Part shown: in pieces, positions 20,239-64,000 of the stretch | How positions within the stretch are numbered: position 1 is the first letter of the stretch | Layout of the letters: every line of letters starts with the position of its first letter | Source of the DNA: Ascidia mentula | Taxonomy: Eukaryota; Chordata; Ascidiacea; Phlebobranchia; Ascidiidae | DNA: 64,000 bases | Direction: 5' to 3' | Assembly: GCA_947561715.1 (NCBI GenBank) | Contig: OX387205.1 | Span: 4,531,001 to 4,595,000 of the forward strand | Program-made: the position numbers and the translations under genes | The notes under the pieces: model-generated | The model's input: the letters and a program-made list of their open reading frames with translations, nothing else | What the model was told of the DNA's origin: nothing | Databases searched by the model: none

Positions 20239-20685
20239 CTAAATGAGTTGGCGGTCCTTGAGACCCCGCAATAAAGCGAGAAGCATTACCTCATTTTTAA
20301 TGGCGGAGTCGGCTGCCCTCGGGTATGCACATGCGGCTAAAGCTTCTATGGCATACACAAAAGTTCTACCGTCTTCTTGTTGCCCTTGGATTCGGTCGAC
20401 CAACTGGCTTCTCAGCGGGCATTGGCCAGTGGGGTTTACTCCGACTGCTTTGGCTTTAGTAACTATCTCTTCAAATTGCATTTCGTTCAGATTATCGGCC
20501 CCGTTTTGAATATCCCATATAAAGTCTTTGTCAACATTTGTTAAGAAAAGGTGCTTCTTAACCTCTTCGGTAGCTTTTATGCTGGCGCAATAAGAATTAA
20601 AAACTTGTAAAAATGAGGTAAAATTGTCTCCGTTTCTGAAATGCGGGGGAGTCATGCCGATGTTAAGAGCCATCTTCCGGATCAA
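20239..20685 (-). pseudogene. Gag fragment of the decayed Gypsy element
   Basis: A 148-codon open frame with the helical, Gln- and Glu-rich composition of a retrotransposon capsid region (N-F-T-S-F-L-Q-V-F near the start). It is followed in another frame by the zinc-knuckle region. There are no intact partner genes, so it is a remnant. Confidence 0.65.
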
Positions 20686-21189
20686 GAAAAACGAACCGTA
20701 AATAAACGCTTTCCAAGGTCCTCAGGACGCTGCATTAACGGCCAACCACAAGCCTGTTCCAGCACAACGGTTAAACAATTCAATTCAATCTTGTTCATAA
20801 AAACTCTAAAAATCCCACAGACGAATCACAATCTCCCAAAAACGGTCTGTCTCGCGATTTTCTCTTAGAGTCTCGTGTAAGCCCGGTTTATCTTTTGTCT
20901 CCCCCGTCATTGGCCCAACCGTGTCACGTGAGAGGAAGGGAGCTAGCGCTGCGATATAAAATCAACGTGCGGTGACTGGTGCGTTCGAGACACTTCGTAA
21001 AAAAAATATGAATCAACACAAAACATTTAAATGAACAGGTGGAAGGTGAAATAACAAAAGGTGAAAAAGAACGTGGCGTAAAAGAATGTTTCAATTTTTG
21101 AAGTGGCGTAAAAGAATACGTGATATAACAAAGCGTGCAACTTGAAAACGAAACGGAACAAGTGGGCAAATTCTTATGCGCTACAATAT

Positions 21190-22114
21190 TATTTAAAGCA
21201 TAATAAATGAGATTGTATAGCTTGTACGATGTAATATCAAATTTGTGGCGCTGAACAGGAAAACATTTTTCTGCATTTCATGTTCGACTGGTCTAGTTTA
21301 TATTAGTGTTCATAGCCTTTTGGCAAACTAGTTACATATTCGCCAAGCTGTGGCTTTGGGCACGCATTCTGGAAATACTTTTTTCTACTCGTATTTGTGT
21401 ACTGGAACCCAGCAACTGCCCGCTTTAGATTTTAATTTAATTTGGAATGTAGCCTGGTCGCCAACGACTGCAATGAATTCATAAAAACCTAGTTTAAGGT
21501 TATTTTATTAGGTACAAAGGAGCGTATAATTCTGTATTGGAAAGTCATATCAATAATTGGACTGATAGCCAATGCTCACCAATACCAATACATTTGGCTT
21601 TTATATTTAAAGCCATTTTATTGTATCTTAAATTTTTTAGATTAAGGTGATCAAGAATATGTTTAAATAGATATATGTCAGTTATTAAAACCTTTGTTTT
21701 GAATCTAGAGTCACGCCTTGCAAGACACAAAAGCTCAAAACTTACCAGTTCTGTATAATTGTGTTTGATCTCCAATCATCCGTTGCACGCCACTTGGGCG
21801 TGGTTCGGATCGCCAGCCTTGTAGAACTCAAAATAAGACGTTTTGTTAAGTTGGTTCAACTTCGGGAAGCAAGTCATGTAAAGCTTTTCAGCCTGTATTA
21901 TGAAACAACAGGCCTTTAATTCACGTCAGCAGATTTGTACTCAGAAAAAATCGATTTCGTTTGTATAGTTTAAGAAAACACAACAAAAAAGCAGTAATTT
22001 GCCGTCAGAGAGCAAAAAAGACAATGTTCAACCGAGGGCTAGATTCTTCTGGAGTTAAAAAGCAAGTCTGTAAAGCTTTTACTTTTATTTGAAGAAAAAT
22101 CGTTTGAATTAGTG
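21190..22114 (+). repeat. Upstream module of the exon 1-2 unit before FUT-B
   Basis: Sequence from 21190 matches 4940-5870 and the tandem units at 7.0 and 8.9 kb. It is the presumed promoter side of FUT-B. No separate gene is seen; the open frame at 21545-21775 (-) recurs with changes in the other copies and is not likely to be coding. Confidence 0.6.
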
Positions 22115-25100: not shown

Positions 25101-25452
25101 ATTACGATGCAAAACGACTGGTGGAATATTTGAAAGAAGTGGACAGGAATGAAACTAAATACAAAAGTTTCTTCGAGTAAGTTTTTGTGCAACTCCTTTG
25201 ACTTTTGTTTTCTAACATTTGTTTTGTATTATTAGATGGTGGAAAGAACCGGGATTTTATCCAGTACTGAACATTCGGGAGCCAACAGATAAACGCGACG
25301 TAGTTTCTGACGAAGCGCTGAGCTACCAAGTCAGCGCACATTGTCATCTATGTAGGAAACTTTACGACAAAGAACATTTTGGGAAATCAAAAGTGATCGA
25401 CAATCTTGCTGAGCATTTTTACGGCAAAGAAGACCCAGCCTGCTACGCATGA
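22115..25452 (+). CDS. FUT-B: alpha-1,3-fucosyltransferase family protein (GT10), complete, 8 exons
   Basis: Tandem paralog of FUT-A with identical exon lengths. Exons: 22115-22217, 22423-22482, 23786-23984, 24052-24237, 24469-24550, 24629-24810, 24934-25176, 25236-25452. Splice sites and phases all hold, giving 423 residues. The protein has the signal anchor, stem, W-W-C-E-E-N-P-W motif in exon 4, the GDP-fucose signature F-E-N-V-K-G-C-N-D-Y-V-T-E-K in exon 7 and the Cys-rich C-terminus. Exon 6 differs most from FUT-A (for example S-D-C-N-K-T-K-D). Golgi location and use of GDP-fucose follow from the family; the acceptor glycan is unknown. Intron 2 holds a tRNA-like SINE and an extra 288-bp insertion absent from FUT-A. 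Confidence 0.93.
22969..23043 (+). repeat. tRNA-like head of a SINE (tRNA pseudogene)
   Basis: GCTCCTG and CGGGAGC form a 7-bp acceptor stem (one G-T pair). TAGCTCAGTTGTGAGAGC gives a D-arm and box A; GAGTTCGAACCTC gives a T-arm and box B with one mismatch. The anticodon arm is faulty: TTGGG and CCCCA leave an 8-base loop containing TGGT, so no clean anticodon. It resembles an animal tRNA-Thr. An inverted tRNA-like sequence at about 23231-23170 closes the segment. It is not likely to be a working tRNA. Confidence 0.5.
23473..23760. mobile_element. 288-bp insertion with 11-bp target duplication in FUT-B intron 2
   Basis: TTAAATTGCAA occurs at 23462-23472 and 23761-23771 and once in FUT-A. The insert has imperfect direct repeats at both ends (AACTTCTGCTAGTTTCA at about 23495 and 23735) and an internal AACTGAGGATGCC...GGCGAAATCG motif like the PLE tails elsewhere in the window. 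I infer a short PLE-derived element with terminal direct repeats. Confidence 0.6.
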
Positions 25453-26118
25453 CCTAAACCCAGTTGACATAACGTTTCTGCAATCTTACAAACTCATTCA
25501 TGCGATGATGCACGAAGCCCACAAGTTTCATTTAACTGCAATAGTGTCAGCACTTACACCATTGTTTTTTGATAAAGTGAAGGGATTGGGTTAAAAATAC
25601 TCAACCGGTTAAAAAATGTGACAACGCGTAAATGCCATATTCACTGAAACGTTTAAGTTTACTGCAACACAACGCTTTGATAAAGTGCAACTATATCTAC
25701 CCCAGATGCGCATTTTTTTTTGTTGGATAAGTAACGATTCCCATGAGACTAAATATATTTTCCGATCAGGCTTAACCAGTATTTAAGCAATTTTTTGTGT
25801 TTGTATTGTTGCGAAAAAAAGTGATCGCTTGGTCTTGTTGTACAGATCATCACATTCCTAACTAGACGTGATTTATGCATGATTCGAAGTGCATTGAAGT
25901 CATTGTTTAACGCATAATTGCGCACATTGGCTGAAGTAAGTTTCGACTTTTCTTCAACCGAAATAAATGTTTCAGCACTGTTCAACCTCACTTTGTCTTG
26001 TGCGCGCTGTGTCTGATGATTGCGTAGAACAGAAACCGGAGTGGTTAAAAACCACTTAGGCGCAGCGACTTTTAACCTAACTGTTGATGAAAAACACCCG
26101 AATTTGGAATGTTAGTAG
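25453..26118 (+). other. FUT-B 3' untranslated region with AATAAA at 25962-25967
   Basis: No coding feature. It matches 12779-13377 downstream of FUT-A and then runs into the Gypsy insertion. Confidence 0.4.
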
Positions 26119-26253
26119 TAAAGCGTTACACAGCTTTATTCCGTTGCAAAGTTAAGAATGACTCAACGAGTCAACGCAACAGCAGCAAAAGAGAAACGCG
26201 GGGAAAAAGGCAATTAATCCGCTTCGCTAAAATGCGGTAATGTGCGCGCTACA
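26119..26253 (-). repeat. 3' LTR of the Gypsy element
   Basis: Read on the minus strand it begins TGTAGCGCGC and ends GCTTTA. It contains AATAAA (minus strand) near its end, a candidate poly(A) signal. Confidence 0.85.
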
Positions 26254-26415
26254 TAACCCCCCGCCAGAAGCGGACAACAAAATTTACAAACAAAAACTGG
26301 CAGGAGGGCGAGTAATGCGACCAGAGCGCGTGCGTTGAATAGAGTCTGGTGATAATGTTGGTTGCCCGGCGGATGGAACTCGACCCTGTTTGCAAGGCCT
26401 TCCTCGACGCGGTGG

Positions 26416-28330
26416 TTAAGCTGTTTGGACCGGTTGTGTCAGGTCGACGTGGGCAGGTTTTAAACGGTCAACAGAAACTGTCTGTTGGCGTCCACCGAAG
26501 TCCAGCGTGAAACTTTTGTGTGTTCTTGCAATGACCCGGTATGGCCCTTCATACGGAGGTGTCAAAGGCGGGCGATGTTTGTCTGTGCGCAAGAATACAT
26601 AAGCGCTAGTGTCCAATGACTTTGGAACATTTTCATGCGGATTTGAGTGACGCGACATTGGTGTCGGCAGGAACCTGCCAACAGCCGACCGCAAAGCGGG
26701 CAAAAGTTGACGCGGGGACGGTTCAGTGGGTGTTGAACCAATGAAATCGCCAGGTACAGTCAACGGTGAACCGTAAACGAGCTCAGCAGACGATGTCCCG
26801 AGATCTTCTTTTGGAGCGGTGCGGATTCCAAGCACTACCCAGGGCAGAGCGTCCATCCAATTGCTGTCGGTGAGCCGAGCCATAAGGGCACTCTTCAAGT
26901 GGCGATGGAAACGTTCGACCAGACCATTTGATTGGGCATGATAAGCCGTCGTGCGATGAAGCTTGACATTAAGAAACCTATTGAAAGATGTCCATAAATC
27001 AGACGTGAATTGTGGACCACGGTCGGAGGAAATGTCCAAAGGTACACCAAAACGCGACACCCAGTGGTAAACAAATGCCCTAGCACACGTTGGCGTGGTA
27101 GCATCAGGAAGAGGCACAGCTTCTGGCCATCTCGTAAAGCGGTCGATCATTGTAAACAAATAGGTATTGCCCTGTGAAGACGGAAGTGGACCGACTAGGT
27201 CCACATTAACATGAGCAAAACGAGCCCGTGGAGGCGGGTAGTTTTCGAGCGGTGAACGTACATGTTGTTGGATTTTCGATTTTTGACATTGTATGCAGTT
27301 GCGGGTCCATAATCCAACCTGTTGTTTCATCCCATGCCACACGAATTTGGAAGCAACTAGCTGGCGGGTGGCTCGAATAGATGGGTGCGACAAACCATGC
27401 ACAATTTCAAAAATTTTACGCTGCCAAGACTTGGGTACAATGGGGCGTGGGACGTTTTTAGAGACATCACAGAGTATGGTGTTGTCGGAAATACCATACT
27501 GTATGTCTTGCAACTTGAGATTGGTCACAGCCGTGCGGTATGCTTGAACTTCCGGATCAAGCTGCGCGGTTGCTAAAGCGGAGTAATCCAAGTCCAAAGG
27601 AAATTCAATGGAGTCGATGGAGGCGCGGGATAGAGCATCTGCGACCTGATTTTGCTTTCCTTTGATGTATCGCACATCGGTAGTGAACTCGGAAATGGCG
27701 GTCAAATGACGCTGTTGTCGCGCAGACCAAGGTTGGGAAACTTTTGTGAAGGCAAAAATCAACGGTTTGTGGTCAGTGTAAGCCGCAAAACAGCGACCTT
27801 CCAGAAAGTAGCGAAAATGTCTGATGGACAAATGCAAAGCGAGAAGTTCTCTGTCAAATGCACTATACTTTACTTCTGGTGGTCGAAGACGTTTACTGAA
27901 AAATGCTATCGGTTGCCAGACACCATCAATGAATTGCTGCAACACTGCTCCAACCGATGTTTGTGACGCATCAGTAGTGAGGGCAGTTGGCGCTTGAGGC
28001 AGAGGGTGGTGTAAAAGCGTCGCGCGCACAAGTGCTGCCTTCGCTTTTTCAAATGCTGAAGTCAGGCGATTGCTCCAGAACGAGTTGTGTTGCTTTGCCC
28101 GAAAACGCCTCATAGATTGGGGACATGATGCGCGCTGCGTTTGGTATGAACCTGTGGTAGAAATTTATCATACCCGCGAATTCCTGAAGGCCCTTGATGG
28201 TTGTAGGACGAGGAAACTGCTGGATTGCTTTCACTTTGTGAGGCAACGGACACGCACCATGCATATTGACTCTGTGACCGAGGAAATCAATTTGGTCAAC
28301 GCCAAACTGGCACTTTGATGACCAGACCAT
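26416..28330 (-). pseudogene. pol: Gypsy Pol, RNase H and integrase part, frame-shifted from RT
   Basis: Two frames (28330-28049 and 28113-26416) carry the RT connection, RNase H (T-T-D-A-S, F-D-R-E-L-L-A, Y-T-D-H-K-P) and integrase. The integrase has an H2C2 finger, and D, D, E in N-V-D-L-V-G-P, S-S-D-R-G-P-Q-F and N-G-L-V-E-R-F. All three acidic residues are present. A frame shift near 28.1 kb separates RT from RNase H. Confidence 0.85.
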
Positions 28331-29339
28331 GATCTGCCAACCGTGTAAAAAGTCGTTTTAAATGGTTGTAGTGATCAGCAGGTGTTTTGCTTGCTACTAA
28401 GATGTCATCGAGGTACACAAATACAAAATCAAGAGACTGGCAAACTGTGTCCATTAAACGTTGAAATGTTTGGGCGGAATTTTTTAACCCAAATGGCATG
28501 CGCAGAAATTCAAAAAGACCGAAAGGTGTAATTACCGCCGTTTTGGCAACATCCGCGGGGGCAACTGAAACTTGGTGGTAGCCACGCACAAGGTCGATTT
28601 TGGAAAAAATGGTAGATCCTGCCAAACTTGCTGAAAAGTCCTGAATGTGAGGAATAGAATAACGATCTGGCAGAGTAACAGCATTTAATCGCCTGTAATC
28701 TCCACACGGCCTCCAACCGCCTGTAGATTTTGGAACCATGTGTAGTTGCGAAGCCCAGGGGCTGGACGAGCGTCTGACAATCCCCATTTTTAACATATTG
28801 GCGAACTCATTTCTTGCCAAAGTGAGTTTCTCAGGAGGAAGGCGCCGAGCACGCGCGTGAACTGGAGGTCCACTTGTTGTTATGAAATGCTGCACTCCGT
28901 GCCTGGGGAGCAATTCAGAGAAGTGAGGCGCTGTAACTGCGGGAAATGCGGCCAGCAAACGCGCGTAATCGCACTTGTCTGAGGTGAGAACATTTATGCG
29001 TTGAAATAAAGATCCGGCTTTTCGAATAGGAAAACTTGCAAACGTTTGTGCGCTGACCAAACGCTGTCGTTGAAGATCAACTAACAAAGAATGTGCTCTC
29101 AAGAAGTCGGCGCCGAGCAATGGCCTGGAGACATCCGCCAAAACAAAATTCCATTTAAACTTCCCAGCGGGCAAATTAAGCGAGATTAGACGTGAGCCGT
29201 ACGTCCGAATACGGCTGCCATTCGCAGCCACAAGGGTTTTGCCGGGCCTGTTCGTGTGGCGCTCAAAGCGAGTCGGTGGAAAAACACTGATTTCTCCCCC
29301 CGTGTCGACAAGAAAATTACGCCCAGATATGCGGTCCAT
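28296..29339 (-). CDS. pol: Gypsy Pol, protease and reverse transcriptase part
   Basis: The 347-codon frame begins with an aspartic protease site F-L-V-D-T-G-G-E-I (about residues 9-17). It continues to RT motifs [23 protein letters not shown] (motif A Asp), M-P-F-G-L-K-N-S-A and V-Y-L-D-D-I-L-V (active site). The frame then breaks; RT continues in another frame at 28330-28049 with F-L-G-H-R-V. The break argues against activity of this copy. Confidence 0.85.
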
Positions 29340-29381
29340 TAAAAAAAAAGAGGCTGCTCGTTTTGCCGGCCGTCGCAGCCG

Positions 29382-30050
29382 CTAAAGACGGTCGGCTTGC
29401 TCGTTTCCCCGAAACGCACATGAAGGACAACACTGACGTGCGTTTTTACCGAAACGACGGTGGTAAAAGCATAATGTTTGAGCGTTTCTTACTTGTTGTG
29501 GTGTAGTAGTACTGAACTTCGAGCGTCGCACCTTTAATACCGCGTATTCCTCGTCTTTTCTACTAGCCAAGAGCAGAGCATCCGCCTGTTGCGCTAAAAC
29601 GCGAGCACAAGGAAAATCCTTTCCAGCCAAACCCGTGCGTACGGCAGCGGGCATCTTCTCCAGGAACAATTCTTTGAACAAAAAACAAGGTTCCTCACTC
29701 CCAAGCAACGCCAGCATTTCGTCCATTAGGGCAGTTGGCAGCCGGTCACCTAAAGTTGGCATGTGGAGTAAGTGTTGAGCTCTTTGTGACGGTGTTAAAG
29801 TAAAAGTAGTCAGCAATCGCTTCTTAATTGCTGCATACTTGTCTTCATGCGGCGGTTGTTCAAGTAAATCAATCAAACGACTTGCTGTGTTCTGATCGAG
29901 AGCTGACACAACGTAAAAGTACTTGGTTTCGTCAGCTGTCACTTTCTTCAAAGCAAATTGAGCTTCCGCTTGCTGGAACCAAACACGTGGCTGCGACATC
30001 CAAAATGTGGGGAGTTTAATAGCCACAGCGTTTTGATCACTACCATCCAT
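29382..30050 (-). CDS. gag: Gypsy Gag protein
   Basis: 222 codons starting at an ATG about 57 bp inside the 5' LTR. The N-terminal half contains P-T-F-W and P-R-V-W-F-Q-Q-A-E-A-Q-F, the capsid motif of this Gypsy group. It would form the particle. The C-terminus has Cys residues (C-F-Y-H-R-R-F-G...A-R-Q-C) that look like one zinc knuckle. The frame ends just before pol starts in another frame at 29339. Confidence 0.8.
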   Translation of the reverse strand: MDGSDQNAVAIKLPTFWMSQPRVWFQQAEAQFALKKVTADETKYFYVVSALDQNTASRLIDLLEQPPHEDKYAAIKKRLLTTFTLTPSQRAQHLLHMPTLGDRLPTALMDEMLALLGSEEPCFLFKELFLEKMPAAVRTGLAGKDFPCARVLAQQADALLLASRKDEEYAVLKVRRSKFSTTTPQQVRNAQTLCFYHRRFGKNARQCCPSCAFRGNEQADRL

Positions 30051-30245: not shown

Positions 30246-31255
30246 GAGCTTTTTTATCAGCGAAATTTAGACTTGTAAAGCCAGTAATGTACCTCAGACA
30301 GCTAAAGAGCTAGGGCTGTCATGCTTTGTGTATTAGGTCGGTTAATGATGTCACTTTTGATTTTTATATTTCCATGACTTTAATAATTTTCCAAAGACAA
30401 ATAAACTGTGATAAAGCCTCTTTGCGTAACAGGTGAAAAGTAGAATTTAATGAACGTAATTGTGCCGGAAGGTCAGTCCAAAAAATACATTATGCCTCAA
30501 CAGCAACAACCTGCTCAAAGCAACTTGGAAATATTCTGCATGACCTTTGTTCCAACAGAATATCGAGTCTTTCCAAGTTGCCTTGATTGAGTATTTGTTT
30601 GGGGAGGGCGTCAGAGGGATTGCGCTTATACATGACTTGACTCGAATGCTGTTAAACTTACGACTGGAACGACTCTGGTAATGTTGATTTTAGCTCCCTT
30701 TTCGGGCACACAGCGGTAGGCTATACGAAATCGGTACACATTGTTATCGATCTATGCAAAGCGAGTTGTGGTCCGCTATTTATTTTTTACATCAAACAGT
30801 CTTCATTCTTGTCAACACGATCCATGCCCATTAACTGAGGTTTCTGTTTTCGATTTTATGAAGCTTGTGCATCATTAAAACACAAATGATATTTGTTATA
30901 ACATACTTGCTCAAGGAATTTAAAGGATAAGGGTAAATGAATTTTAAAACGTAAGGAGGATATATTGATCCACTTCAAGCATTGTGGACGTTCATGACCA
31001 CACAGTTAAAGGTTCGGTAATCGCCCGTGAAAGGATGGAATTGCAGGGTACTAGGCTTCCCTGACAATTTGACGCGATGATGCTAGCGCAATGAGTATTA
31101 ACGCAATGAGTATTAATGAAGGTCGGCTTACCTATTGGCAAGTTGCCATTGTATTGTCTGTTCACCTGTGCTCTCGGCTGAGATGCGGGCAGGCAGAATA
31201 ATCCGAATTATAGTTTATTAATCGAATCGAAATCAGAATTAGTCTTGTTCAAAAT
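30246..31255. other. Non-coding duplicated segment with an extra 155-bp hairpin insert
   Basis: It matches 14350-15240 except for about 30502-30656, which is absent there. The insert starts with an imperfect hairpin: GCAACTTGGAA and ATATTCTG pair with CAGAATAT and TTCCAAGTTGC across about 16 bases. No gene was recognised. Confidence 0.5.
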
Positions 31256-32180
31256 AGCATAGCATAGCATAGCATAGCATAGCATAGCATAGCATAGCAT
31301 AGCATAGCATAGCATAGCATAGCATAGCATAGCATAGCATAGCATAGCATAGCATAGCATAGCATAGCATAGCATAGCATAGCATAGCATAGCATAGCAT
31401 AGCATAGCATAGCATAGCATAGCATAGCATAGCATAGCATAGCATAGCATAGCATAGCATAGCATAGCATAGCATAGCATAGCATAGCATAGCATAGCAT
31501 AGCATAGCATAGCATAGCATAGCATAGCATAGCATAGCATAGCATAGCATAGCATAGCATAGCATAGCATAGCATAGCATAGCATAGCATAGCATAGCAT
31601 AGCATAGCATAGCATAGCATAGCATAGCATAGCATAGCATAGCATAGCATAGCATAGCATAGCATAGCATAGCATAGCATAGCATAGCATAGCATAGCAT
31701 AGCATAGCATAGCATAGCATAGCATAGCATAGCATAGCATAGCATAGCATAGCATAGCATAGCATAGCATAGCATAGCATAGCATAGCATAGCATAGCAT
31801 AGCATAGCATAGCATAGCATAGCATAGCATAGCATAGCATAGCATAGCATAGCATAGCATAGCATAGCATAGCATAGCATAGCATAGCATAGCATAGCAT
31901 AGCATAGCATAGCATAGCATAGCATAGCATAGCATAGCATAGCATAGCATAGCATAGCATAGCATAGCATAGCATAGCATAGCATAGCATAGCATAGCAT
32001 AGCATAGCATAGCATAGCATAGCATAGCATAGCATAGCATAGCATAGCATAGCATAGCATAGCATAGCATAGCATAGCATAGCATAGCATAGCATAGCAT
32101 AGCATAGCATAGCATAGCATAGCATAGCATAGCATAGCATAGCATAGCATAGCATAGCATAGCATAGCATAGCATAGCAT
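31256..32180. repeat. Perfect AGCAT pentanucleotide array, 185 copies
   Basis: 925 bp of uninterrupted AGCAT. On the minus strand it reads ATGCT, free of stops in all three frames, which creates long artificial frames of Met-Leu-Cys-Tyr-Ala. The paralogous site at 15.2 kb has only a few AGCAT and AATAG units. The true copy number may differ because such arrays are hard to assemble. Confidence 0.97.
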
Positions 32181-32480
32181 AATGATTCGGGACACACCGG
32201 GCCATTTTAAAGTAGGTATATTGTAGTCAAAGGTGGGTAGGCGCACAATTTGCCTGAGCACATAGTTCGCTTTTTTTGCTACCAGGCATTGTATGAACTG
32301 TTCTTCTTGCATAAAGTTACGAGATTTTGATTCATTTGCACGAACCAGACCTTACTGGTCGACATGCGCAACTAATCGTGTTTGTTTCGTGAAATATTTT
32401 TGTCTTGCATAAATTCTGACGACAACGTATGATTCCGTGCGTTGTTGTTTAACTTTTGATGAAGTTGATTTGGTCGAAGC

Positions 32481-49259: not shown

Positions 49260-49936
49260 CCAACGTTTCTTCTGCCATCCGGCGAGACTTCTTCAGGGTT
49301 ATGTCAACAGTGAAGCATCACGCGCATAAAGCACTAAAAACGCAGGAAAAACGCAAGAAAAACAAGGAAAAGGTAATAAATACCATTGGCACCACTTGCA
49401 TCGTCACGTGAACCAGGTGTGTAGCGGGGCGTAACATTTACAACAAGTTGTTGTATACAGCTGGAAAATACACACATTGCTCCTTATCGTTTATGCAATT
49501 GTCGTTTTTATGGACGTGGAGCGTCTCCAGGAACAGACGTTTTGTATGATCGTCCTCCATCTCTAGGATTTGCACGTCATCAAAGTTAACTCGGTGAAAG
49601 AGTGTGGCAGCGTGTTTCGCCAGTGCTGTCCTCTGGCTGTTCTTCGCTGCAACGTCGCGGCGATGCTCTTTTAACCGAGTCTGTAACGTTCTCCCTGTTT
49701 CACCGATGTACGCTCCACCGCAGTCCTTGCACGGAATGTAATAGACGACGCCTTTTGGTTGGGCCGTACCCTTCTCGATAGGGTGAGACAACACCCTGCC
49801 CAGTGTTCTGTGTGGCTTAGTGTAGACCGCAATACCATAGTCCAACATCATACACCTTAGCGTGTCTGTTAAAGCCGGAACATATGGCAAAACGATCGTA
49901 CCGGTAGTTGGCGCTGTTTATGTGAGCCCCGCGCAT
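49260..49936 (-). pseudogene. Penelope-like GIY-YIG endonuclease (PLE4), 5' truncated
   Basis: The 150-codon frame (49890-49438) contains V-V-Y-Y-I-P-C-K-D-C-G-G-A-Y-I-G-E-T-G-R, R-L-K-E-H and a C-terminal F-L-E-T-L-H-V-H-K-N, a complete GIY-YIG domain of PLE type. Its 3' tail (49320-49260) reads AAGAAGTCTCGCCGGATGG and then AAACGTTGG on the minus strand. It lies tail to tail with PLE3. Confidence 0.85.
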
Positions 49937-52342: not shown

Positions 52343-52361
52343 GGTACCTTCTAATACTGCA

Positions 52362-52622
52362 GGTCCGCTAGGTCCGCTAGGTCCGCTAGGACCGCTAGGT
52401 CCGCTAGGTCCGCTAGGTCCGTCAGGTCCGCCAGGTCCGCCAGGTCCGCCAGGTCCGCCAGGTCCGCCAGGTCCGCCAGGTCCGCCAGGTCCGCCAGGTC
52501 CGCCAGGTCCGCCAGGTCCGCCAGGTCCGCCAGGTCCGCCAGATCCGCCAGGTCCGCCAGGTCCGCCAGGTCCGCCAGGTCCGCCAGGTCCGCCAGGTCC
52601 GCCAGGTCCGCTAGGTCCGCTA
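52362..52622 (+). repeat. 9-bp minisatellite GGTCCGCCA/GGTCCGCTA, 29 units
   Basis: Exactly 261 bp. Variant GGTCCGCTA units sit at both edges and GGTCCGCCA in the middle, with one GATCCGCCA. It is flanked by GGTACCTTCTAATACTGCA (52343-52361) and a copy with one change (52623-52641). One frame would read Gly-Pro-Pro like collagen, but there is no supporting gene structure. Confidence 0.95.
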
Positions 52623-52641
52623 GGTACCTTCTAATACTACA

Positions 52642-53272: not shown

Positions 53273-56200
53273 ATGAGTTCAGAAAGCATGAATTTAAGAT
53301 GTAAAATCCGTTATTTTCTGGCCATTTCAACATTAACGTGTTTAATTACAATTTCATACATCGTTGGACAAAGAAAAGATTTTGTACAACCCAAACCGTC
53401 AAAAGGTACATATTTGATTTTACTGCGTTGACAACAACTGGGACAAGTTAATTTGCCAAACGTACTCTTTTATTATAAACGCAAATCTATACCCAGAATC
53501 TCTTTGTCTAAAATTGATATGATAAATTTAAACTCAATAATGCAAGAATTTTACCTGATCTTTTTTGATGAACCTGTCGCAAGCGGCTAAATCACGCCCT
53601 ACGTACATTCACGTAGTTTGACATTGAACTGGGACTTCTTACATAAATAGTTACATGAACACAATTAACAACAACTTTTCACTACATGTGTTGGTGGATA
53701 TTATAATCCACTATTTAATTATATTTGTGAAAATATTTCTGTGTGACATGATGAACTAGCCCACCAAATGCCAATAATTTGCAACCATACATAGTTTGGC
53801 ATGCGTCAATGATATTGCTTATCGGGACGCAAAATACATTCATAGATATTAGAAATAGGCTTACCGAGTGGAACTTATGACTTAGACTTACAATTCTAAA
53901 TAGTATTTTTAACTTGTTTCATATGTAAGTGTGTTTCATTTTTTTGCCTCCCGCATCCGATGTCCAGATCGTATTAATCAACCTTCAAACATCACCATAC
54001 CACAAGAGCAGCTGGTTTTTGCTAAGCAGGCGCTTTCTATTGTTATTCACAAGGTTGAGTTGTGGTTTGGTGACTCGATTCGGACGCAGTGTGTTTCACT
54101 TTCATTTTTATTGGATAAAACGTATGACCACGTGATTGCAGTGAGACAATAGTGCTTTGAACACGCAAAAGCGCGTGAAAACCTGCGTCACATTTTTTCG
54201 TCAGAGAACAAATCCAAGCCGACGATCCTTTTGTGGGCTCCACCATTCCGCAAAATTGAGTGGATTCTTCCTGACACTGCAGAATGCGGTGGTGGGTGCA
54301 TAATCACTACAGACAGGAGTCTGTACAATCAGAGCGATGCAGTCGTTTTCTTCATGAAATCAACCAACACAAAGTCATTGCCTAATCCATCAACACATTC
54401 AAGGTTAAAAGCAATTAATAGTAAAATGTAGGAGGTAAACAAAATTATAGCAAATTTACCAACCGATTGTAAGCTAATAAATGTAGTTTTGAAATCCTAT
54501 TACCATGTTTACAGACTGATGTGGACTAATAAAATATTTTAACGTGGTATAATATATTAACTAACGGTGTACAAAGATTTCGTGTGCTTTAGAGATGGAA
54601 AAGTGTACGTTTGGTGGTGCGGCGAAAGCCCTTGGACGGTGCGTAACATGTATCACAAGTCTCTGAAAGAATTTGACGGATATTTCAACTGGTCCATGCA
54701 TTACCGAAGAGACTCAGACGTATTTGCAGCACTTATTCCCCACACATCACGTGATTGGCTTCTTCGCCGTATAGGAAGGTACAAAGGTGGATAAGTCAAA
54801 ATAGCAAACAGCACAACGCATGATACCTTTGTTTACAGGGACAAAGAGGCATTACACATTAAAACTGACATTAAAGGTTTTAGCGACGAGGAATTTGAAG
54901 AAGTATTTAAAACATTAAGAGAGGTACGGATGCATATAACTGAAAGACAAACAACAGTTAATAACAATTGATAAGCAATGTGGAGCCAATAATATGAACT
55001 TGTGTATAAGCTGCAGACAGATGGCCACTGTTTCGACCTAAAAGGTCTCATCAGTGCAGCTGGTGTGACTGGCAGACGACTTTGCTGACCAAACGGCCAA
55101 GCAAAGACTTCCACTTTGTGGTGACTATACAGTCACCGTCATCCGTTGGGCACCAAACTAGGTGCAACCTTACGGAGCAAACAAGGTGGAAACACTACGG
55201 CCAAGCAAGCTCAACCAATAGTGCCGTCAGGCCCCGTGTCACAATAATCATATGATAAGCAATGTGGAGCCAATTATATGAATTTGTGTATAAGCTGCAG
55301 ACAGATGGCCACTGTTTCGACCTAAAAGGTCTCATCAGTGCAGCTGGTGTGACTGTCAGACGACTTTGCTGACCAAACGGCCAAGCACCAACCAACGGAT
55401 GACGGTGACTGCATAGTCACCACAAAGTGGAAGTCTTTGCTTGGCCGTTTGGTCAGCAAAGTCGTCTGACAGTCACACCAGCTGCACTGATGAGACCTTT
55501 TAGGTCGAAACAGTGGCCATCTGTCTGCAGCTTATACACAAAGTTAATAACAATTGTTTGAATGCAATCATACAATTATAACCAATTCATGCCAATAGAG
55601 TTTCTGCAAACCAAAATTGATTAAAATCCAAAGCTAAAACTTAGATATTACTTTATTATTTCGTTGAAGCTATACCAGACAAGCTGGACCAACTGCGGAC
55701 GCCAGGGATTGATATAAATTAGTGTCACCCAGGAAACCGTTCATAACGCAGTGGAATGTAATTTTACTGGTCAATTTTTGCTGTCCAATATTTAAATGTT
55801 AATTAATGTAAATAGGTTGGTTGGTTCATGTAGGGTAAACATTCTTTCTCCACTTTTACTTACATAGCCCATTAGGTCACCTGTAATTTTTTATAATTTA
55901 TTCCCCCCGTATCAAAATGGTTGCCCCATCCCCAAGCTATACGCTAAAATTTGTGCTGAGGATGTTTTTAGTGAAAGGCATGAGTGTTGACTTATTAAGT
56001 CTCATGTGCTTGTTTTGTCGGCAATAGCTAATCAGTGTAGACTATTCCACCTTATGAAGACTTTGCGTTGGCTGGCAAACCGTTGCCTGTCAAACTTAAC
56101 TGTACAAACTATCAAGACGAACCTTTGTGGAACAGCTTACGGCCAAGCAACTGGTTTAAAAATATTTGGTTGGCGGTAGATAATTATCACATGTAAATCA

Positions 56201-57522
56201 AATCACGCAGAGCAATGTAGCTACGTATAACCAACAATAATCTGGGTAGGCTTTGCACAAAAGCGTCGTCAAAACAGAAGAAACTGTGATAGGCAAATAT
56301 TTATAGGCTTGCACTTGATGTTGTGGGCACTCAGCAAACGAAATGCGAAGTATACAATACGCTGCGTAAATTGCAACTGATTTGCGAAAACAATGGGTAG
56401 ACGATAAATCTGTGTTGATAAACTAAAATTGATCGATCGGTATCAATGGAAGGATAATTATGTTATTACTTGCACGTATTGGGTTTTGAAGTTGTGTAAA
56501 CAAATTTTGTGATAAATTAATGCCTGCAAAATCGGTTTTACTGCATCAAGTTATAACTACGTAGTTACAATCAAAACGTCTGAAAATTGAATTTTTTAGC
56601 AGTTACATGGGCTTTACTGTTTGTTTTGAAGATTTATTAAATCGTAAGTTATGTTACATAGGTTAGAACTACATTGTTGCTTATGTTTATCTTCACGTTG
56701 CATGACCTAATAACGTCATGATATAGATGGAAGCCGTTTATGTTCACTTTAAGTGTATGACGTATTGCAGGTTGCCTGTCAACAGGTTTTCGCGGACGGA
56801 AACTTGGAAACACTGTTTCAGTGTAATATTACGAGCTAAACAGTAGCCACCTATCGTTTTATCATTCATTTGTTTGCCTTCTTATGTGTGTCACACCACT
56901 CATGAACGTAAATGATTAACGAACCATAAATCGTTATCTTGATTTGTTTCACTGAATTAAACTGCGACACTGTTATGTGCGAAGGAGAAAATGAAATCCG
57001 CGGTTTTCGTCGTGAGCGATTGTACCTCTACGAAGGGAGCAAAAGATAGAATGAAGTTTGCCCAGAAACTTGGGAAGGAATACAACTTCGAACAGTTCGG
57101 TAAATGCAACCACAAACCACTGTCAAGTAGCAATGCGGAACTTTACAAAGTTATACGAATGTACAAGTAAGGATCTTGAAACCAAAATTATTTGACTCGC
57201 AGAAAACGTCTGTTGTTCTTTTCCACCAAATCGTTTCTCTTACAATTATTTTATAAATTTCCAATGTTGTTTCATTTAGATTCTATTTTGCATTTGAAAA
57301 CACGAAGGGTTGCAACGATTACGTCACAGAGAAATTTTGGATCAACTCTTTGTACGTTGGATGCGTGCCGGTAGTTTGGGGCCCAAAAAAGGTCGACGTG
57401 GCCCGTCTGGCTCCACCAAACTCCTTCATACACGCAGAGGATTTCGATTACGATCCAAAACGACTGGCGGAATATTTGAAACAAGTGGAAAGGAATGAAA
57501 CCGAATACAAAAGCTTTTTTCG
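53273..57522 (+). CDS. FUT-C: alpha-1,3-fucosyltransferase family protein (GT10), last exon missing
   Basis: Exons: 53273-53405, 54205-54403, 54593-54778, 54839-54923, 56985-57166, 57280-57522. Lengths 133, 199, 186, 85, 182 and 243 match the other family members (one extra codon in exon 5) and all phases agree. Exon 1 encodes a signal anchor at about residues 14-27; a second Met at 53288 is in frame. Exon 4 has W-W-C-G-E-S-P-W and F-N-W-S-M-H-Y; exon 7 has F-E-N-T-K-G-C-N-D-Y-V-T-E-K and G-C-V-P-V-V-W-G-P. The donor CG|GTATTT at 57522 needs a final 217-bp-type exon, but none is visible before the BEL element. It may lie beyond the window or be lost. Intron 5 is about 2 kb and carries hammerhead repeats. 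Confidence 0.85.
55009..55061 (-). ncRNA. Type I hammerhead ribozyme, copy 1
   Basis: On the minus strand: AGCTGCA (stem I), CTGATGA, GACC/GGTC stem II with a 5-base loop, GAAA, a 4-bp stem III (including A-T next to the core) with a 7-base TGGCCAT loop, GTC, then TGCAGCT closing stem I. Cleavage is expected after the base at 55016. All core positions are canonical. Confidence 0.9.
55293..55345 (-). ncRNA. Type I hammerhead ribozyme, copy 2
   Basis: Identical in core and stems to copy 1, 284 bp away in the same orientation. Cleavage is expected after 55300. Cutting at copies 1 and 2 would release a 284-nucleotide RNA. Confidence 0.9.
55480..55532 (+). ncRNA. Type I hammerhead ribozyme, copy 3, sense to FUT-C
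   Basis: CTGATGA at 55487-55493, stem II 55494-55506, GAAA 55507-55510, stem III closed by A55510-T55524 to G55513-C55521, GTC ending at 55525, and stem I AGCTGCA/TGCAGCT. The loop TGGCCA is self-complementary. Transcription of FUT-C would include this strand. Confidence 0.9.
55542..56984 (+). other. Rest of FUT-C intron 5
   Basis: AT-rich intron sequence with no further recognised element. The acceptor GTGCGAAG at 56984 has a weak pyrimidine tract, but gives the same 182-bp exon 6 as in the paralogs. Confidence 0.5.
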
Positions 57523-58964
57523 GTATTTGTATGAAAATTACCTTTATTTATTTATTTATTATATTTGACATATTCTAAAAGTGGTGATATCTAACGTGGT
57601 AGTAAGTATTTCGTGATAATCATTCAACATGACTTTCCAAAGATCATGTCCTTAATTCCACGTTACCGAAGCATGCGCAAGGTGTATATTAAATAACCAC
57701 AAAGGAACAGTATTTAAAACTGAGTACACGGGCCGGCAGAATATCACTTGTAGTGCCATCAAAAGACCGTTCCAGCACCTCCTGTGTACGGTTCGCCCAA
57801 TAATACCTCTCCAGTGGCTGGTAAAAATGAATATCAATGATCCACATGAAGTCAAGGCGACAGTGTTTTATATCGCCATTCATCTCATTTCGTGATGACT
57901 ATAAAAGAAGCTGAGTCAGTTAAACATACTCTGTCCATTTTCCCAAATGTCACCCCTCTGTACGGTGGTGCATGCTGGCTCTAACTTGGTTTGGGAAGCT
58001 GAATTTTGGGTTGTAATTCCTTAAATGTAACGCTACAACAGTGACAAGCACGCGAACAAACCAGGTTTTACACACAAATAGGACTTATTGTCTAAAAGAC
58101 AATTGACCATACATTTGACATTTCCTTTATTTATTTACACTCTATCGTGATCACACTGTGGCATAAGAAGCATACCATGCAGACACAAACCAAAAATTGT
58201 ACTGCCTTGCTGTGTTAAAAGTGTGAACATAAATTTCCATTTGATGCTTTGATGAAACTGGTGCACGCCTGACAAAACTTCAAATACATATCTTGCCGTA
58301 TGACGGGAAAGATTATCAATGGTCATCAAGCTGCTTTGATGAGACTTAGTGGTTCGAAACAGTGATCTTATCTGCAGCTTACCTAAAACGTATCATTATA
58401 ATGTAACATCGAAAATCACTCATGCACAACCCTTGCGTCACACAGTAAACATATAATTCAATTTCCACACAATATCAATTTGGCCTTGTATGTGACATCA
58501 TAATGCAAGAGAACTTTTTTCCTTCTGCCATGCTTGGTAAAACTGAGTTGTTAGGTACCACGTGTAGCGTGCTGAATTTAATGTCAAGTTTATTTTATTA
58601 AAGCTAGAGTTGCCTTAATTCTATTTGAATAAGTTGCTGTAAAAAATATTAATCGGATTGGTTTGTTGATGTTTCGTGTGATCTGGCTCAAAACTCCGGT
58701 AAGGGTATTTTTATTAACATTGCTTAACTGGAATCTTAGTGTACGTTTTCTTCACAGAAAACCGTGTTCTTTCTTGTGTCTGTGCTCGTGTTCCGATTCT
58801 TGTACGTGTTGTCAAGTGCCTGTGCCCGTGTGGCAAATACACGCGTTTTCGGGAATTGACATTCCTTGGTGTGACGACGGCGCGCTGCCAGACGCGCAAA
58901 TTCTGTCGTTACATTAAAGTTTTCGGAGTCTTTCTGAAACAAAGTTTCCAAGAAGTTCTACTTT
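57523..58964. other. Stretch between FUT-C and the BEL frame; unassigned frame 57883-57692 (-)
   Basis: No FUT exon 8 could be found. A minus-strand frame of 64 codons (57883-57692) has a protein-like composition with Trp, Tyr and Arg but no recognised family. The 5' LTR of the BEL element should lie in the right half, but cannot be delimited because the other LTR is outside the window. Confidence 0.3.
58329..58379 (+). ncRNA. Decayed hammerhead ribozyme
   Basis: AGCTGC, TTGATGA, a damaged stem II, GAAACAG, ATC and TGCAGCT follow in the correct order. C3 of the core is changed to T and stem III is longer and mismatched. It is related to the copies at 55 kb and probably inactive. Confidence 0.7.
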
Positions 58965-61900
58965 TTGACGATCTGTGAAGAAATGGATGAGACTATATCT
59001 CCGCTTGAATCGCCGGAGCCTACACGGTTGAGACCCCTCGCCGCTCAAGTCGTACTATCCTATGACGAGATACACCGCCATGTCGACAAGCTCAACAGTT
59101 GGTATGCAGTGGCTGAGACAGGCATTTTAAATAAGGACCACTCCCTACTGCAAGTAGCTAAGTTCCAAATTAACGAATGCTACTCACAATTGCAAAATAT
59201 GTACGGAATGTATATTGCCTCTTGCGAAGACTCAGAGAACCGCGTTGTATGCGAGGACGAGTTGAAGTCCGTCGAACAATGTAAGAAGGAGTTCGAAACC
59301 AGAATTGCGGAGTTAACGCCATTCGAACTACCAAATGCATTGCCCGAACTTGTGCTACGCCCACAGCATAGGGCACCAACTGTGGCTTCAAGCCACAGAT
59401 CCTCACGGTCCAGCCGCTCACGTTCGTCTGTGGCGAGCTCATCTGCGACAGAAAGAAGTCGTCTAGAGGCAAAGGTGGAGCGAGAGTTGGCATTGATTCG
59501 TCTAAAACAGGTCGAGGAAGAAAACGATCTAGTTCAAGGGCAACGAAAGGCGGAACTTGAAAAAGCAGCTCTGGGACGAAAGGCCGAACTTGAAAGGGTG
59601 GCTCTGCAACAGAAGGCAGATTTGGAAAAGGTTGTCTTGGAAGCAGAAAGGCGGAAGTTAAAGGCAAAATACGATTTCCAGGCTGCCGATGCAAGGGCTA
59701 GAATATTGAATGAAGAACCCAATGATCTGACATCGCCGGACAAGGATCCCAACCATAGTCAGAGCCCAGAAGTAGAATTGACTTCCTCGGTGCTGGGTGT
59801 CGAAGAAGTTCCGACGACGTCTTCTGCTACCAGAGATTGTGCGTCCCTTGTCCTAAATGGGGAAGTTCCACGTGACAACGTTAGTCCTCTTGTACGTGCT
59901 CCTGTATTGAATACACACCCAGACTTGGAAATGAAAGAGAGCCCAGCTGTATTACCGTGCATCGTAAAGGCTGTTGGAGAAGGCATGAGTATGCCGAAGC
60001 CCGACCACATGACGTTCTCGGGAAAACCTACGGATTATTGGATGTTTGTACGTTACTTTGAATCGAATCTCGAATGCAAGACTCGAAGTGACGATATGCG
60101 CCTGACATTGCTTGTCAATCAATGCAAAGGAAAGGCGAGGTCTCTGATTGAACACTGTTCTGTCCTGGAGACAAAGGAAGGCTATCCAGAGGCAAGAAAC
60201 ATTCTCTACGAGAACTTCGGTAAGCCTTATATAGTCGCTAGAGCCTTCGTAGAGGAGTTGACTAATGGCCCTAACTTGAAACCTGATGATGCAGCCGGTA
60301 TCCGCGCCTATGCACAGACTATGAAGAAATGCTTGTTGGTACTCCGCCCACTTGGAAATTTTGCTGACTTAAACACTATAGATCGTTTGGTGGCTTTGGC
60401 GAAGAAGCTGCCATATGAATCGCAAAGGCTTTGGCGCCGCCGAGTTGCGCAGATTGTAAGAAAAACTGGCAGGGAGGCAGATTTCGCAGATCTTGTTGAA
60501 TTTGTCGAAGAAGAATCTGCCGTAGTGAACACTTTACCTGGCCAGTTGTGTGTGTCCCGGAAAATTGAAGAAAAGAAACGTGCTGGTAAACCCAGTGGAA
60601 GAAATGTTACCTGCGCCACTGTGACAACAAATCCAAGTTCGTCGCCTGCCCCAATATTGAGCTGTCCATGCTGCAAACGTAATCACGTATTGGAAAGATG
60701 TGAGGCGTTTGGTAAAAAATCCAAGGTTCAAAGAAGAGAGTTCCTAAGGGATAAATTTATGTGCTATAACTGTTTTGGTTATCGACACACGTCGAAGTTT
60801 TGCACAAGGCCAAGTGCATGTGCTGTTCGGGGCTGCACCCTCGCGCACCACAAATTGCTGCACGAAGATATGCCAAATCCTGTACGTTCGAGGACATACG
60901 TGCCTGCGTCGGAAAATTATAATAGAATTCCGCGCAGTGAACCCCCCAGGAGCCAGACTAACAATTCTACAGCCAGGTGCAATGCGATAAAGAACGGCCA
61001 TTCAGCGTACTTTTCGGTTATTCCGGTGAAAATTCGAGCCAATGGTCGAGAGGTCAAGACGTACGCGTTCCTCGACCAGGGATCCGATACAAGTTTTTAC
61101 GACAAAAAGTTAGCAGATCTACTTTCGATAGACGGAAGTCCGAGACAAGTTACCATGTCCAGCGTCGGGAGAAGGCCCGCAAATTACAACGGATTTAGCG
61201 CAAATTTTCGCGTTTTGTCGTTAAGTGAAGATGAAGAAATCAGTGTAGACAATGCCTTGTCTATTGACTCTATTCCAGTCGAGCCTAATCCAACCCCGAG
61301 AAATACGGAACTGAATGGTCTTCCACACCTTCAGGGATTGGAATTCCCTCAGTTGTGTAATGGTGAGGTGCTGCTACTTATTGGCACTGACGTTACGTAT
61401 GCCCATAGAGTATTGGAGATGAGAACAGGAGACCGCAAACAACCATTTGCTGCGAGAACACCGCTGAGGTGGTCTCTCGTCGGCCCGTCAATCTGTTATC
61501 CTGCCGTTGATAATATTTCAGTTAACTTCCTTAAATGTAAATCATGGAGAGAGGAATTCCAGCAAGAGCCTGATGACATTCCATTCCCAACGTCAGTTGA
61601 GGATAGGAAAGTGCTCAACATGATGAAGGACTCGGTTAAACATACCGATGGACATTTCTATTTGCCGCTTCCATGGCGAAGTGAAGTTAGTCTGCCACAG
61701 GACAGCCGTTCTATGGCTGAGCGACGGCTTTGGTCGCTGAAGAAACGCTTGTCGCGCGACCTCGTGTTAAAAGACAAGTACGTAGAGAATATTCAATGTT
61801 ACATCGACAAGGGCTACGCAGAGGAGCTCAAAGAAGAAGGACGTTCCCCTGGCAATGTGCATTGGTACTTGCCGCACCACCCGGTTCGGCATCCACGAAA

Positions 61901-63155
61901 GCCTGAAAAGGTACGCATCGTTTTTTATTGCGCAGCGCAGCATAAGGGACTGTCGCTTAACGACGCGTTGCTGCAAGGGCCCGACTTAGTAAACAGTTTA
62001 TTCGGCGTTCTGGAGAGACTCCGTATGAACAGTATCGCTTTAGTGGCGGACGTGGAAGCAATGTTCCACCAGGTCCGCGTTCAAAAACAGGACATTGATG
62101 CCTTGAGATTTTTGTGGTGGCCGGGGGGAGACTTATCTAAAACTCCTACGGTTCATCGAATGCTGGTGCACATTTTTGGCGCCACGTCGTCGCCTAGCTG
62201 TGCCACATTTTGCTTGCGGGAGACGGCCGAAAAATTCGGTGGCAGATTTGACAGAGACGTTGGGGACATCGTTCGCAACGATTTTTATATTGACGACTGT
62301 TTGACTTCAACCGATACAGTCGAACACGCTGTTGGAATTGTGGCGCAGCTATGTGACTTGCTAAAAATGGGAGGATTCCGCCTCACTAAGTGGATGTTTA
62401 ACAGTCAAAACGTCTTGGATCAAATTCCCGAGACAGAAAGGGCTAAATCGGTAACTGATGTAAATTTGGACGCCTCCGTGAAAGAGCGTGTGCTTGGCGT
62501 CTACTGGCGTGTAAAGAATGATGAATTTGGGTTCAGCATAGCTGATACAATGCAAGGCAAGAAATTCACACGTCGCAATATTTTATCTGCTGTTAATACG
62601 CTGTATGACCCGTTGGGTTTTGCGGCACCCGTTACTTTGATTGCTAAGGTGTTGCAGCAGGAAATAATTCGACAGAAATTGGGACGGGATGATGAGCTGC
62701 CAGAAGATGATGTTGAGGAATGGAGACGCTGGCTTTCCCAGCTGCCGGAGCTCGAAAAGCTAACACTTCCCCGCTGTTTCAAGCCGGCGACATTCGGTTC
62801 AGTGGCGAAGTCCGAGATGCATCACTTTTCGGATGCGTCTACTAAAGGATACGGAACCGTATCATACCTCCGGTTGGTAAACGTTAATGGTAAAGTATAT
62901 TGCTCGTTTTTATTTGGCAAGGCAAAGGTTACACCACCTAAAACCGAGAGCATTCCCAGGCTTGAACTGGCCGCTGCTGTTCTAGCGGTGAAGGCCGACA
63001 AGTGGCTTCGACGCCAATTGAAGTTGGATAACTGTACGTCCGTTTTTTGGACGGACTCGTGCGCCGTCCGGCAGGGCATATACAACCAAAGTAAACGTTT
63101 TGGTACATTTGTTGCAAACAGGTTGGCTAAAATTCATCGACAGACAAACCCTTAA
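58965..63155 (+). CDS. BEL/Pao Gag-Pol polyprotein up to RNase H
   Basis: 1396 codons; the likely start is the ATG at 58983. A charged coiled-coil region spans about residues 155-240. Two Cys-rich knuckles follow (C-C-K-R-N-H near 567 and C-Y-N-C-F-G-Y-R-H near 598). The protease site is F-L-D-Q-G-S-D-T (about 698). RT has D-V-E-A-M-F-H-Q-V (motif A, about 1028) and Y-I-D-D (about 1108). RNase H begins F-S-D-A-S (about 1286), with R-L-E-L-A-A and W-T-D-S. The usual V-F-D-C-A-A motif before motif A reads V-F-Y-C-A-A. The frame ends at TAA 63153-63155 while coding similarity continues, so this is a nonsense mutation. Confidence 0.92.
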   Translation: MTICEEMDETISPLESPEPTRLRPLAAQVVLSYDEIHRHVDKLNSWYAVAETGILNKDHSLLQVAKFQINECYSQLQNMYGMYIASCEDSENRVVCEDELKSVEQCKKEFETRIAELTPFELPNALPELVLRPQHRAPTVASSHRSSRSSRSRSSVASSSATERSRLEAKVERELALIRLKQVEEENDLVQGQRKAELEKAALGRKAELERVALQQKADLEKVVLEAERRKLKAKYDFQAADARARILNEEPNDLTSPDKDPNHSQSPEVELTSSVLGVEEVPTTSSATRDCASLVLNGEVPRDNVSPLVRAPVLNTHPDLEMKESPAVLPCIVKAVGEGMSMPKPDHMTFSGKPTDYWMFVRYFESNLECKTRSDDMRLTLLVNQCKGKARSLIEHCSVLETKEGYPEARNILYENFGKPYIVARAFVEELTNGPNLKPDDAAGIRAYAQTMKKCLLVLRPLGNFADLNTIDRLVALAKKLPYESQRLWRRRVAQIVRKTGREADFADLVEFVEEESAVVNTLPGQLCVSRKIEEKKRAGKPSGRNVTCATVTTNPSSSPAPILSCPCCKRNHVLERCEAFGKKSKVQRREFLRDKFMCYNCFGYRHTSKFCTRPSACAVRGCTLAHHKLLHEDMPNPVRSRTYVPASENYNRIPRSEPPRSQTNNSTARCNAIKNGHSAYFSVIPVKIRANGREVKTYAFLDQGSDTSFYDKKLADLLSIDGSPRQVTMSSVGRRPANYNGFSANFRVLSLSEDEEISVDNALSIDSIPVEPNPTPRNTELNGLPHLQGLEFPQLCNGEVLLLIGTDVTYAHRVLEMRTGDRKQPFAARTPLRWSLVGPSICYPAVDNISVNFLKCKSWREEFQQEPDDIPFPTSVEDRKVLNMMKDSVKHTDGHFYLPLPWRSEVSLPQDSRSMAERRLWSLKKRLSRDLVLKDKYVENIQCYIDKGYAEELKEEGRSPGNVHWYLPHHPVRHPRKPEKVRIVFYCAAQHKGLSLNDALLQGPDLVNSLFGVLERLRMNSIALVADVEAMFHQVRVQKQDIDALRFLWWPGGDLSKTPTVHRMLVHIFGATSSPSCATFCLRETAEKFGGRFDRDVGDIVRNDFYIDDCLTSTDTVEHAVGIVAQLCDLLKMGGFRLTKWMFNSQNVLDQIPETERAKSVTDVNLDASVKERVLGVYWRVKNDEFGFSIADTMQGKKFTRRNILSAVNTLYDPLGFAAPVTLIAKVLQQEIIRQKLGRDDELPEDDVEEWRRWLSQLPELEKLTLPRCFKPATFGSVAKSEMHHFSDASTKGYGTVSYLRLVNVNGKVYCSFLFGKAKVTPPKTESIPRLELAAAVLAVKADKWLRRQLKLDNCTSVFWTDSCAVRQGIYNQSKRFGTFVANRLAKIHRQTNP

Positions 63156-64000
63156 CAATGGAGACACGTTGGATCACAGCAGAATCCCGCGGATGATGCT
63201 TCGCGTGGTTTGTCGGTACGTAAGCTTATCAGCTCTCGATGGCTGACAGGTCCGAAGTTTCTCTGGCAGAAAGAAGATCAATGGCCCACCCCACCAGAAA
63301 TGAAAACACAGCTGCCCCTGGAGTTCCAGCCAGCTGAGAGGAAAAGAATTGTCGTCAACGTTTGCACACAGTCAGAGTCAACCGATCGACTGATGAATCA
63401 CTATTCATCTCTTCATAAATTAAAGACATCGGTCGCGTGGCTGTTACGATTCAAGTCATTCCTGCTTTCAAAGGTTTCAGCGAACACTGGCAAATTGACA
63501 GTGGATAAGTTAAAGAAAGCGGAATTGGAAATAATCAAGTACGTACAACGTCAGTGCTTCGCTCCTGTGATTGATATTTTGTCACATGTCGGAAGGTCTG
63601 AAAGGGAATTGCAGAAGAAACTGAAAAAGTCGAAATATGCCAGTTCGTTGGCAAAGCTTAACCCCCAGCTATTTGATGAAGTTCTGCGGATTGGGGGGAG
63701 GTTGGAGAAGGCGCCGATTGCCTTCGAGGCGAAACACCCGATCATACTGCCGTATGATCACCACTTGACAGCACTTATTATCTTGCGCCACCATCACAAG
63801 GTTGGCCACTGCGGGACTGACCACACATGGACTTCGCTGCGTCAGCGTTTTTGGATCATAAAGGGTGGCGCCGCAGTGAGGAAGGAACTCAGCAAATGTA
63901 TGATGTGTCGCAAAAGGAATGTTCGACGTTGATTGTCCTGCTGCTTCACATATGGGAGGTTCGTGGGAGAGAATGATCAGATCGATTCGTCGCATTTTAA
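63156..64000 (+). pseudogene. BEL/Pao integrase fragment with core deleted
   Basis: In the same frame as Gag-Pol: N-P-A-D-D-A-S-R-G, then the linker and the integrase zinc finger (H-H-K-V-G-H-C-G with C-M-M-C near 63895). After R-N-V-R the frame changes at about 63930 and directly reads A-A-S-H-M-G-G-S-W-E-R-M-I-R, which normally lies after the catalytic core. The segment carrying the first two catalytic Asp residues is therefore missing. The protein continues past the window. Confidence 0.85.

Follow-up and report, generated by a model that had tools for sequence, protein, structure and literature searches.

Insertions of a hammerhead retrozyme in the Ascidia mentula genome resemble those of Penelope-like elements

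We analysed a window of 64,000 nt from the ascidian Ascidia mentula (assembly GCA_947561715.1, contig OX387205.1, forward-strand positions 4,531,001 to 4,595,000; window positions are counted from its first letter), in which a short block with three hammerhead ribozymes lies in a fucosyltransferase gene. The element is a metazoan retrozyme of the kind without long terminal repeats (non-LTR), a kind already known; the new part is its mode of insertion. We conclude, with a probability of about 0.82, that it is a non-autonomous retrozyme that inserts as Penelope-like elements (PLEs) do, and we infer the action of a PLE protein that cut both target strands and primed reverse transcription twice on one retrozyme RNA, probably a circular one. 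The insertions themselves carry a PLE-type footprint, and the PLEs of the same genome serve as the comparison. How animal retrozymes return into DNA is an open question: Cervera and de la Pena 2020 (PMC7229834) give the helper as unknown, either long interspersed nuclear elements (LINEs) or PLEs, the latter being strong candidates but still only candidates, and according to a passage in a review (PMC7761336) the retrozyme repeats contain no motif that points to the helper. This footprint was not found described for retrozymes in the open-licence literature, judged by titles and abstract openings, a screen that does not establish its absence from print.

The block at 54971-55541 is a single insertion within a 15-bp direct repeat. 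Its parts are as follows (sites A and B are the two end positions in the unit, described below):

54956..54970, no strand: left target-site duplication, AGTTAATAACAATTG, an exact 15-bp repeat found at both insert edges
54971..55387, minus strand: left arm, ~1.5 units, whose hammerheads read on the minus strand and whose outer end falls at unit position 45 (site B)
55009..55061, minus strand: type I hammerhead, cleavage after 55016
55293..55345, minus strand: type I hammerhead, cleavage after 55300
55388..55391, no strand: head-to-head centre of the insertion, 4 nt explained by neither arm
55392..55541, plus strand: right arm, about half a unit, whose hammerhead reads on the plus strand and whose outer end falls at unit position 16 (site A)
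55480..55532, plus strand: type I hammerhead, cleavage after 55525, sense to the host gene
55542..55556, no strand: right target-site duplication, AGTTAATAACAATTG, an exact match to the left repeat

All three hammerheads share the same 53 nt, with cleavage points predicted from the sequence, a core of CTGATGA/GAAA/GTC, stems I, II and III of 7, 4 and 3 bp, and a loop that holds the self-complementary TGGCCA. The direct repeats are spaced 284 bp apart, and the inverted arms share 150 nt at 99% identity. An earlier, sequence-only reading had described a metazoan retrozyme at 54970..55541 with three complete-core, canonical type I hammerheads with a short stem III and the TGGCCA loop, two in tandem at 284 bp and one inverted. 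The hammerheads proved to be exactly as described and the end of the block stands, while its start moves one base inwards, to 54971. That reading had seen the inverted copy but not that it belongs to the same insertion and follows a rule of the family, and it had missed the target duplication and the Penelope-type pair of ends. At the gathering score, Rfam returned no hammerhead family at this locus; below it, Hammerhead_3 matched all three hammerheads at 22.6-22.8 bits (gathering score 48.5). A search of the whole genome with RF00163 gave no match, and the control was also silent in 14 of 14 genomes, so this result is uninformative on absence. Matches of two mir families to the inverted arms (E ~6e-7, well under their gathering scores) were rejected, as they are explained by foldback.

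The sequence-only reading had called for a genome search for the 284-bp unit. At least 46 retrozyme loci were found in the 196-Mb genome (40 from a DNA search and 6 more from a second search with the unit), a lower bound given that 40 of 2238 candidates were scored in the first search and 40 of 2153 in the second. The 40 loci were fetched whole; the 6 later ones form a held-out test and were read by eye from end pieces only. We were able to extract 61 complete units of 283–286 nt from the 40 fetched loci, arranged as direct tandem copies, and the hammerhead core is kept in 123 of the 131 copies spanning the motif. Because the unit recurs at 46 loci, most copies keep the core and the 15-bp repeat bounds the block in the window, a chance origin of the window hammerheads is excluded. 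With one hammerhead per unit, a unit GC content of 47.5%, a longest frame of 81 codons in the reiterated unit, dispersed loci and target duplications, the assignment to metazoan retrozymes is borne out; a 284-nt unit on the minus strand and recent mobility, both proposed earlier, also find support, the latter in the further tandem copies at other loci. Divergence between units is 0.3% within an arm (39 pairs), 0.1% between the two arms of one locus (21 pairs, from only 7 loci where both arms hold full units) and 2.0% between loci (1770 pairs). The hammerhead (unit 235–284) is the least variable part, with 0.0019 differences per site and locus as compared to 0.0141 at 63–234 and 0.0094 in the tail (31 loci); 9 of the 284 circular shifts of the interval reach the value of the hammerhead. 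The predicted circular fold of the unit has an energy of -93.9 kcal/mol (z -3.1).

Flanking direct repeats of at least 12 bp are present at 34 of the 40 loci, as compared to 3 of 200 mismatched flank pairs. The duplications are mostly 12–13 bp long, and exactly 12 bp is the commonest length (20 loci). Among the 38 loci whose direct repeat is at least 8 bp long, 30 are two-armed, with the hammerhead sense pointing outward on both sides. At 29 of these 30, one end lies at unit position 12–19 (site A) and the other at 40–49 (site B); L031 and L042 (2/40) were left out of this count, though L042 ends at 19 and 50. The offset from site A to site B is 28.9 +- 2.8 nt, and the left end is the site A end in 15 of 29, so that the side is random. 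The held-out loci include four two-armed insertions (4/6), all with a site A/site B pair and 12-bp duplications (one with a mismatch), and a one-armed insertion (1/6) that ends at site A and has a duplication of 12 bp. Outside the duplication, the base frequencies are G.57, T.82, T.82 and T.57 (40 sides of the 20 exact-12-bp loci; background G.185, T.322), a pattern that would be expected from cuts before a GTT(T)-like motif on each strand with 3' overhangs. Microhomology between primer and template at 56 outer ends averages 1.64 nt, against 0.53 +- 0.12 for shuffled flanks (0/300). Sites A and B both fall inside a hairpin predicted at unit 12–62, a model without covariation support.

The arms tell us about the template. 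Opposite arms of a locus carry the same variant at 79 of 81 shared variable sites, as compared to 1496 of 2587 (58%) between loci (0/5000 permutations), and in each of the 30 two-armed inserts at least one arm exceeds 284 nt, with a maximum of 1678 nt. Arms of more than one unit require a template that was unbroken across the hammerhead seam. From A or B, a cleaved monomer could yield only short cDNA, which excludes the linear monomer as the sole template. The likely ribozyme activity and the 284-nt circular RNA proposed in the sequence-only reading are still putative, but the insertion anatomy makes a circle, or at least an uncut, reiterated RNA, the likely template. The two arms meet at scattered unit positions. 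Of the 24 loci (of 30) whose centre holds no extra sequence, 21 show 1–7 matching bases; the mean overlap at these 24 centres is 2.25 nt, against a null of 0.68 +- 0.20 from which the 6 loci with extra sequence were likewise excluded. We note that L015 and L037, which are independent insertions, have a common centre (unit 206/236, 2-nt overlap), either a joining hot spot or a shared source.

A GIY-YIG search of the same genome found PLE-like frames, many of them as head-to-head pairs. The fetched PLEs make up four families (A–D), with reverse transcriptase (RT) and GIY-YIG matches in their proteins and minimal hammerheads. Paired edges were scored in all but six of 20 fetched stretches (the six being L057 and L058, which are two pieces of one insertion, L064, L066, L068 and L072). 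All 14 loci with both edges assigned have 12–14 bp repeats, and 13 of them pair an end at an A site with one at a B site 30–45 nt further on, the stretch between being the tail. The tail measures 29 nt in the retrozyme and ~32, ~40, ~38 and ~42 nt in PLE families B, C, A and D, respectively. GTT targets are found at 29 of 60 retrozyme ends (background 22/178), 8 of 15 ends of family B (background 7/45), 6 of 26 of family C (background 9/75), 1 of 8 of family A and 1 of 4 of family D. Tail length and GTT targets point to family B as the helper, as a lead only, since the comparison of B with C gives P 0.086. L057/L058 (C67:6131200-6150800) is a head-to-head array of family A with full 2870-bp units, at least two on each side and 99.97–100% identical, so that PLEs may themselves be copied from reiterated or circular RNA. 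Another PLE insertion (L063, C69:12188000-12197900) sits within a tandem array with a period of ~138 bp. In the window, a 150-aa frame with a GIY-YIG match (49438-49890, minus strand), ~5 kb from the retrozyme, is probably a PLE remnant.

These patterns can be put together as follows. Array transcripts would cut themselves at each hammerhead into 284-nt monomers that close into circles, as proposed for the retrozyme family. A PLE protein, with GIY-YIG endonuclease and RT, would then cut both strands of an AT-rich target ~12 bp apart; the enzyme is our proposal, the cut pattern is observed. The cuts would leave 3' overhangs and on each strand often directly precede GTT(T). Both 3' ends would then serve as primers for reverse transcription at internal positions of the RNA, one at site A and the other at site B (the positions are observed), the two sites lying near each other in one predicted hairpin. 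Each cDNA would pass the hammerhead seam, often for more than one round, and so give direct repeats; the read-through is observed, whereas the circle is the putative part. The two cDNA ends would be joined by microhomology into the head-to-head centre, and gap filling would duplicate the target, in line with the observed pattern. A more general rule can be proposed, at what we consider even odds: retrozymes and PLEs in this genome use A for one priming event and B for the other, both on a single RNA variant, as if each half of a PLE dimer held one strand of the tail hairpin and one cut end, the retrozyme being a minimal circular RNA that mimics the docking site and rolls under both polymerases. 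No A+A or B+B pair occurs among the assigned two-armed loci of retrozymes or PLEs.

Several observations weigh against insertion by PLE machinery. Eight loci are one-armed or complex, L031 and L042 lack an 8-bp repeat, L019 pairs site B with an end at position 266, the sixth held-out locus has neither paired ends nor a duplication, and 6 of the 30 centres, that of the window locus included, carry 4–146 nt of extra sequence. The native hammerhead is absent from the predicted minimum-energy circular fold. No significant shared sequence was found between retrozyme and PLE tails (P.12–.61), nor was the helper's recognition signal, and the whole unit showed no significant similarity to the PLEs, their 5' regions included; since the tails are dissimilar, the case for shared machinery rests on geometry, target and duplication length. 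In the described assay of an Anolis PLE (Frangieh et al. 2024, PMC11167929), the choice of start site showed no difference by strand and hammerhead mutants had no effect on insertion, and for Adineta the passages cited describe a PLE enzyme and cis signals that are co-adapted, with no cross-mobilization between families (PMC3846280).

Among other explanations, PLE-type twin priming could act on a linear multimeric array transcript instead of a circle. The Anolis PLE uses unprocessed RNA in vitro (PMC11167929), and seam read-through and arms of several units also fit uncut multimers. The arms consist of unit copies alone in the 40 mapped inserts, fillers apart, while array transcripts would be expected to bring host flank or old centres; both arms of a locus have a single variant in common, which a homogeneous array would produce as well. 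We consider this version unlikely, yet worth keeping in view. That the unit is instead the pseudo-LTR of an undiscovered autonomous PLE is suggested by the hammerheads in PLE pseudo-LTRs, here and in PMC7229834. We rejected this reading, which looks highly improbable, on the unit-only inserts (at the 40 mapped loci, not all genome loci) and the want of a long frame.

LINEs prime at the 3' end of their RNA, and twin priming gives them inverted structures with variable duplications. A LINE-type enzyme could therefore account for the inversions, but the start sites here are two fixed positions within the RNA, and both the A+B pairing and the 12-bp spacing match those of the PLEs in this genome, which makes a LINE helper improbable. 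A satellite-type array formed by amplification and inversion at the DNA level would also give repeats, in tandem and inverted, whose units are nearly identical within a locus; dispersed insertions with target duplications and two fixed ends contradict this origin, and it was rejected as having hardly any chance of being right. Insertion in the PLE manner is the reading we retain.

As for the host gene, the insertion is flanked by the following frames:

54153..54791 (54153-54428, 54561-54791), plus strand: two open frames, fucosyltransferase N-terminal domain, upstream of the insertion (PF17039, E 2.1e-9 and 3.2e-11)
56961..57565 (56961-57167, 57257-57565), plus strand: two open frames, fucosyltransferase C-terminal domain, downstream of the insertion (PF00852, E 2e-5 and 1.8e-30)

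The flanking plus-strand frames follow the order of the profiles and support the location in a fucosyltransferase intron that had been read from the sequence, the intron being placed by domain matches. Because all fucosyltransferase frames are on the plus strand, two of the window hammerheads are antisense and one is sense to the host gene. Fucosyltransferase family 10 is large in this genome, with 109 matches, several clustered and some with stops; four match groups lie within the window region (including window 57266-57526). Elsewhere in the window there are a perfect 928-bp (ATAGC)n array (31254-32181), a 9-bp minisatellite of which one frame reads as a Gly-Pro repeat (52360-52625), and Gypsy-type and BEL/Pao-type retroelement-like frames, judged by eye (18668-30050 and 58965-63932). 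TTAGGG repeats were seen in 3 of the 6 contig-end pieces examined.

Any genome assembly that contains retrozymes can be screened for the footprint (12-bp duplication, A+B ends and head-to-head arms), and PLE docking and double priming can be studied on the 284-nt RNA as a small template.

Compared with known systems, the element shares with the plant LTR retrozymes, in the passages cited from PMC7761336, that it is hammerhead-bearing and non-autonomous, with a proposed movement via circular RNA; those have a type III hammerhead, LTRs with a primer-binding site and a polypurine tract, 4-bp duplications and a Gypsy-type helper, whereas the hammerhead here is type I and the duplications are mostly 12–13 bp. 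The newt and salamander hammerhead repeats (PMC7229834) are likewise type I, with a short stem III, a palindromic loop and possible action as dimers, but have units of ~330–350 nt and a far higher copy number. With the metazoan non-LTR retrozymes as described in PMC7229834 it has in common the type I hammerhead, a unit of ~170–400 nt in direct tandem copies, GC below 50%, no long open reading frame (ORF), dispersal and target duplications of more than 4 bp; those are described as tandem copies, with no mention in the text cited of the head-to-head arms, 12-bp duplication and two fixed ends found here. With GIY-YIG PLEs (PMC11167929, PMC3846280) it shares inverted or tandem insertion in a target duplication, an AT-rich target, and two RT start sites that bound a tail (30–40 nt in PLEs) with the hammerhead just upstream. 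Unlike PLEs, the retrozyme has no RT or endonuclease ORF, a true stem III is present in its hammerhead, and the distance from the cleavage point to its start sites is 12–49 nt as compared to ~50–120 nt in the PLEs of this genome. The Anolis PLE protein cuts and extends both strands at AT-rich targets, and in vitro it starts reverse transcription at two adjacent internal sites, the stretch between which is the genomic tail (PMC11167929); since start-site choice showed no strand difference in that assay, the paired use of A and B in this genome goes beyond what the assay predicts.
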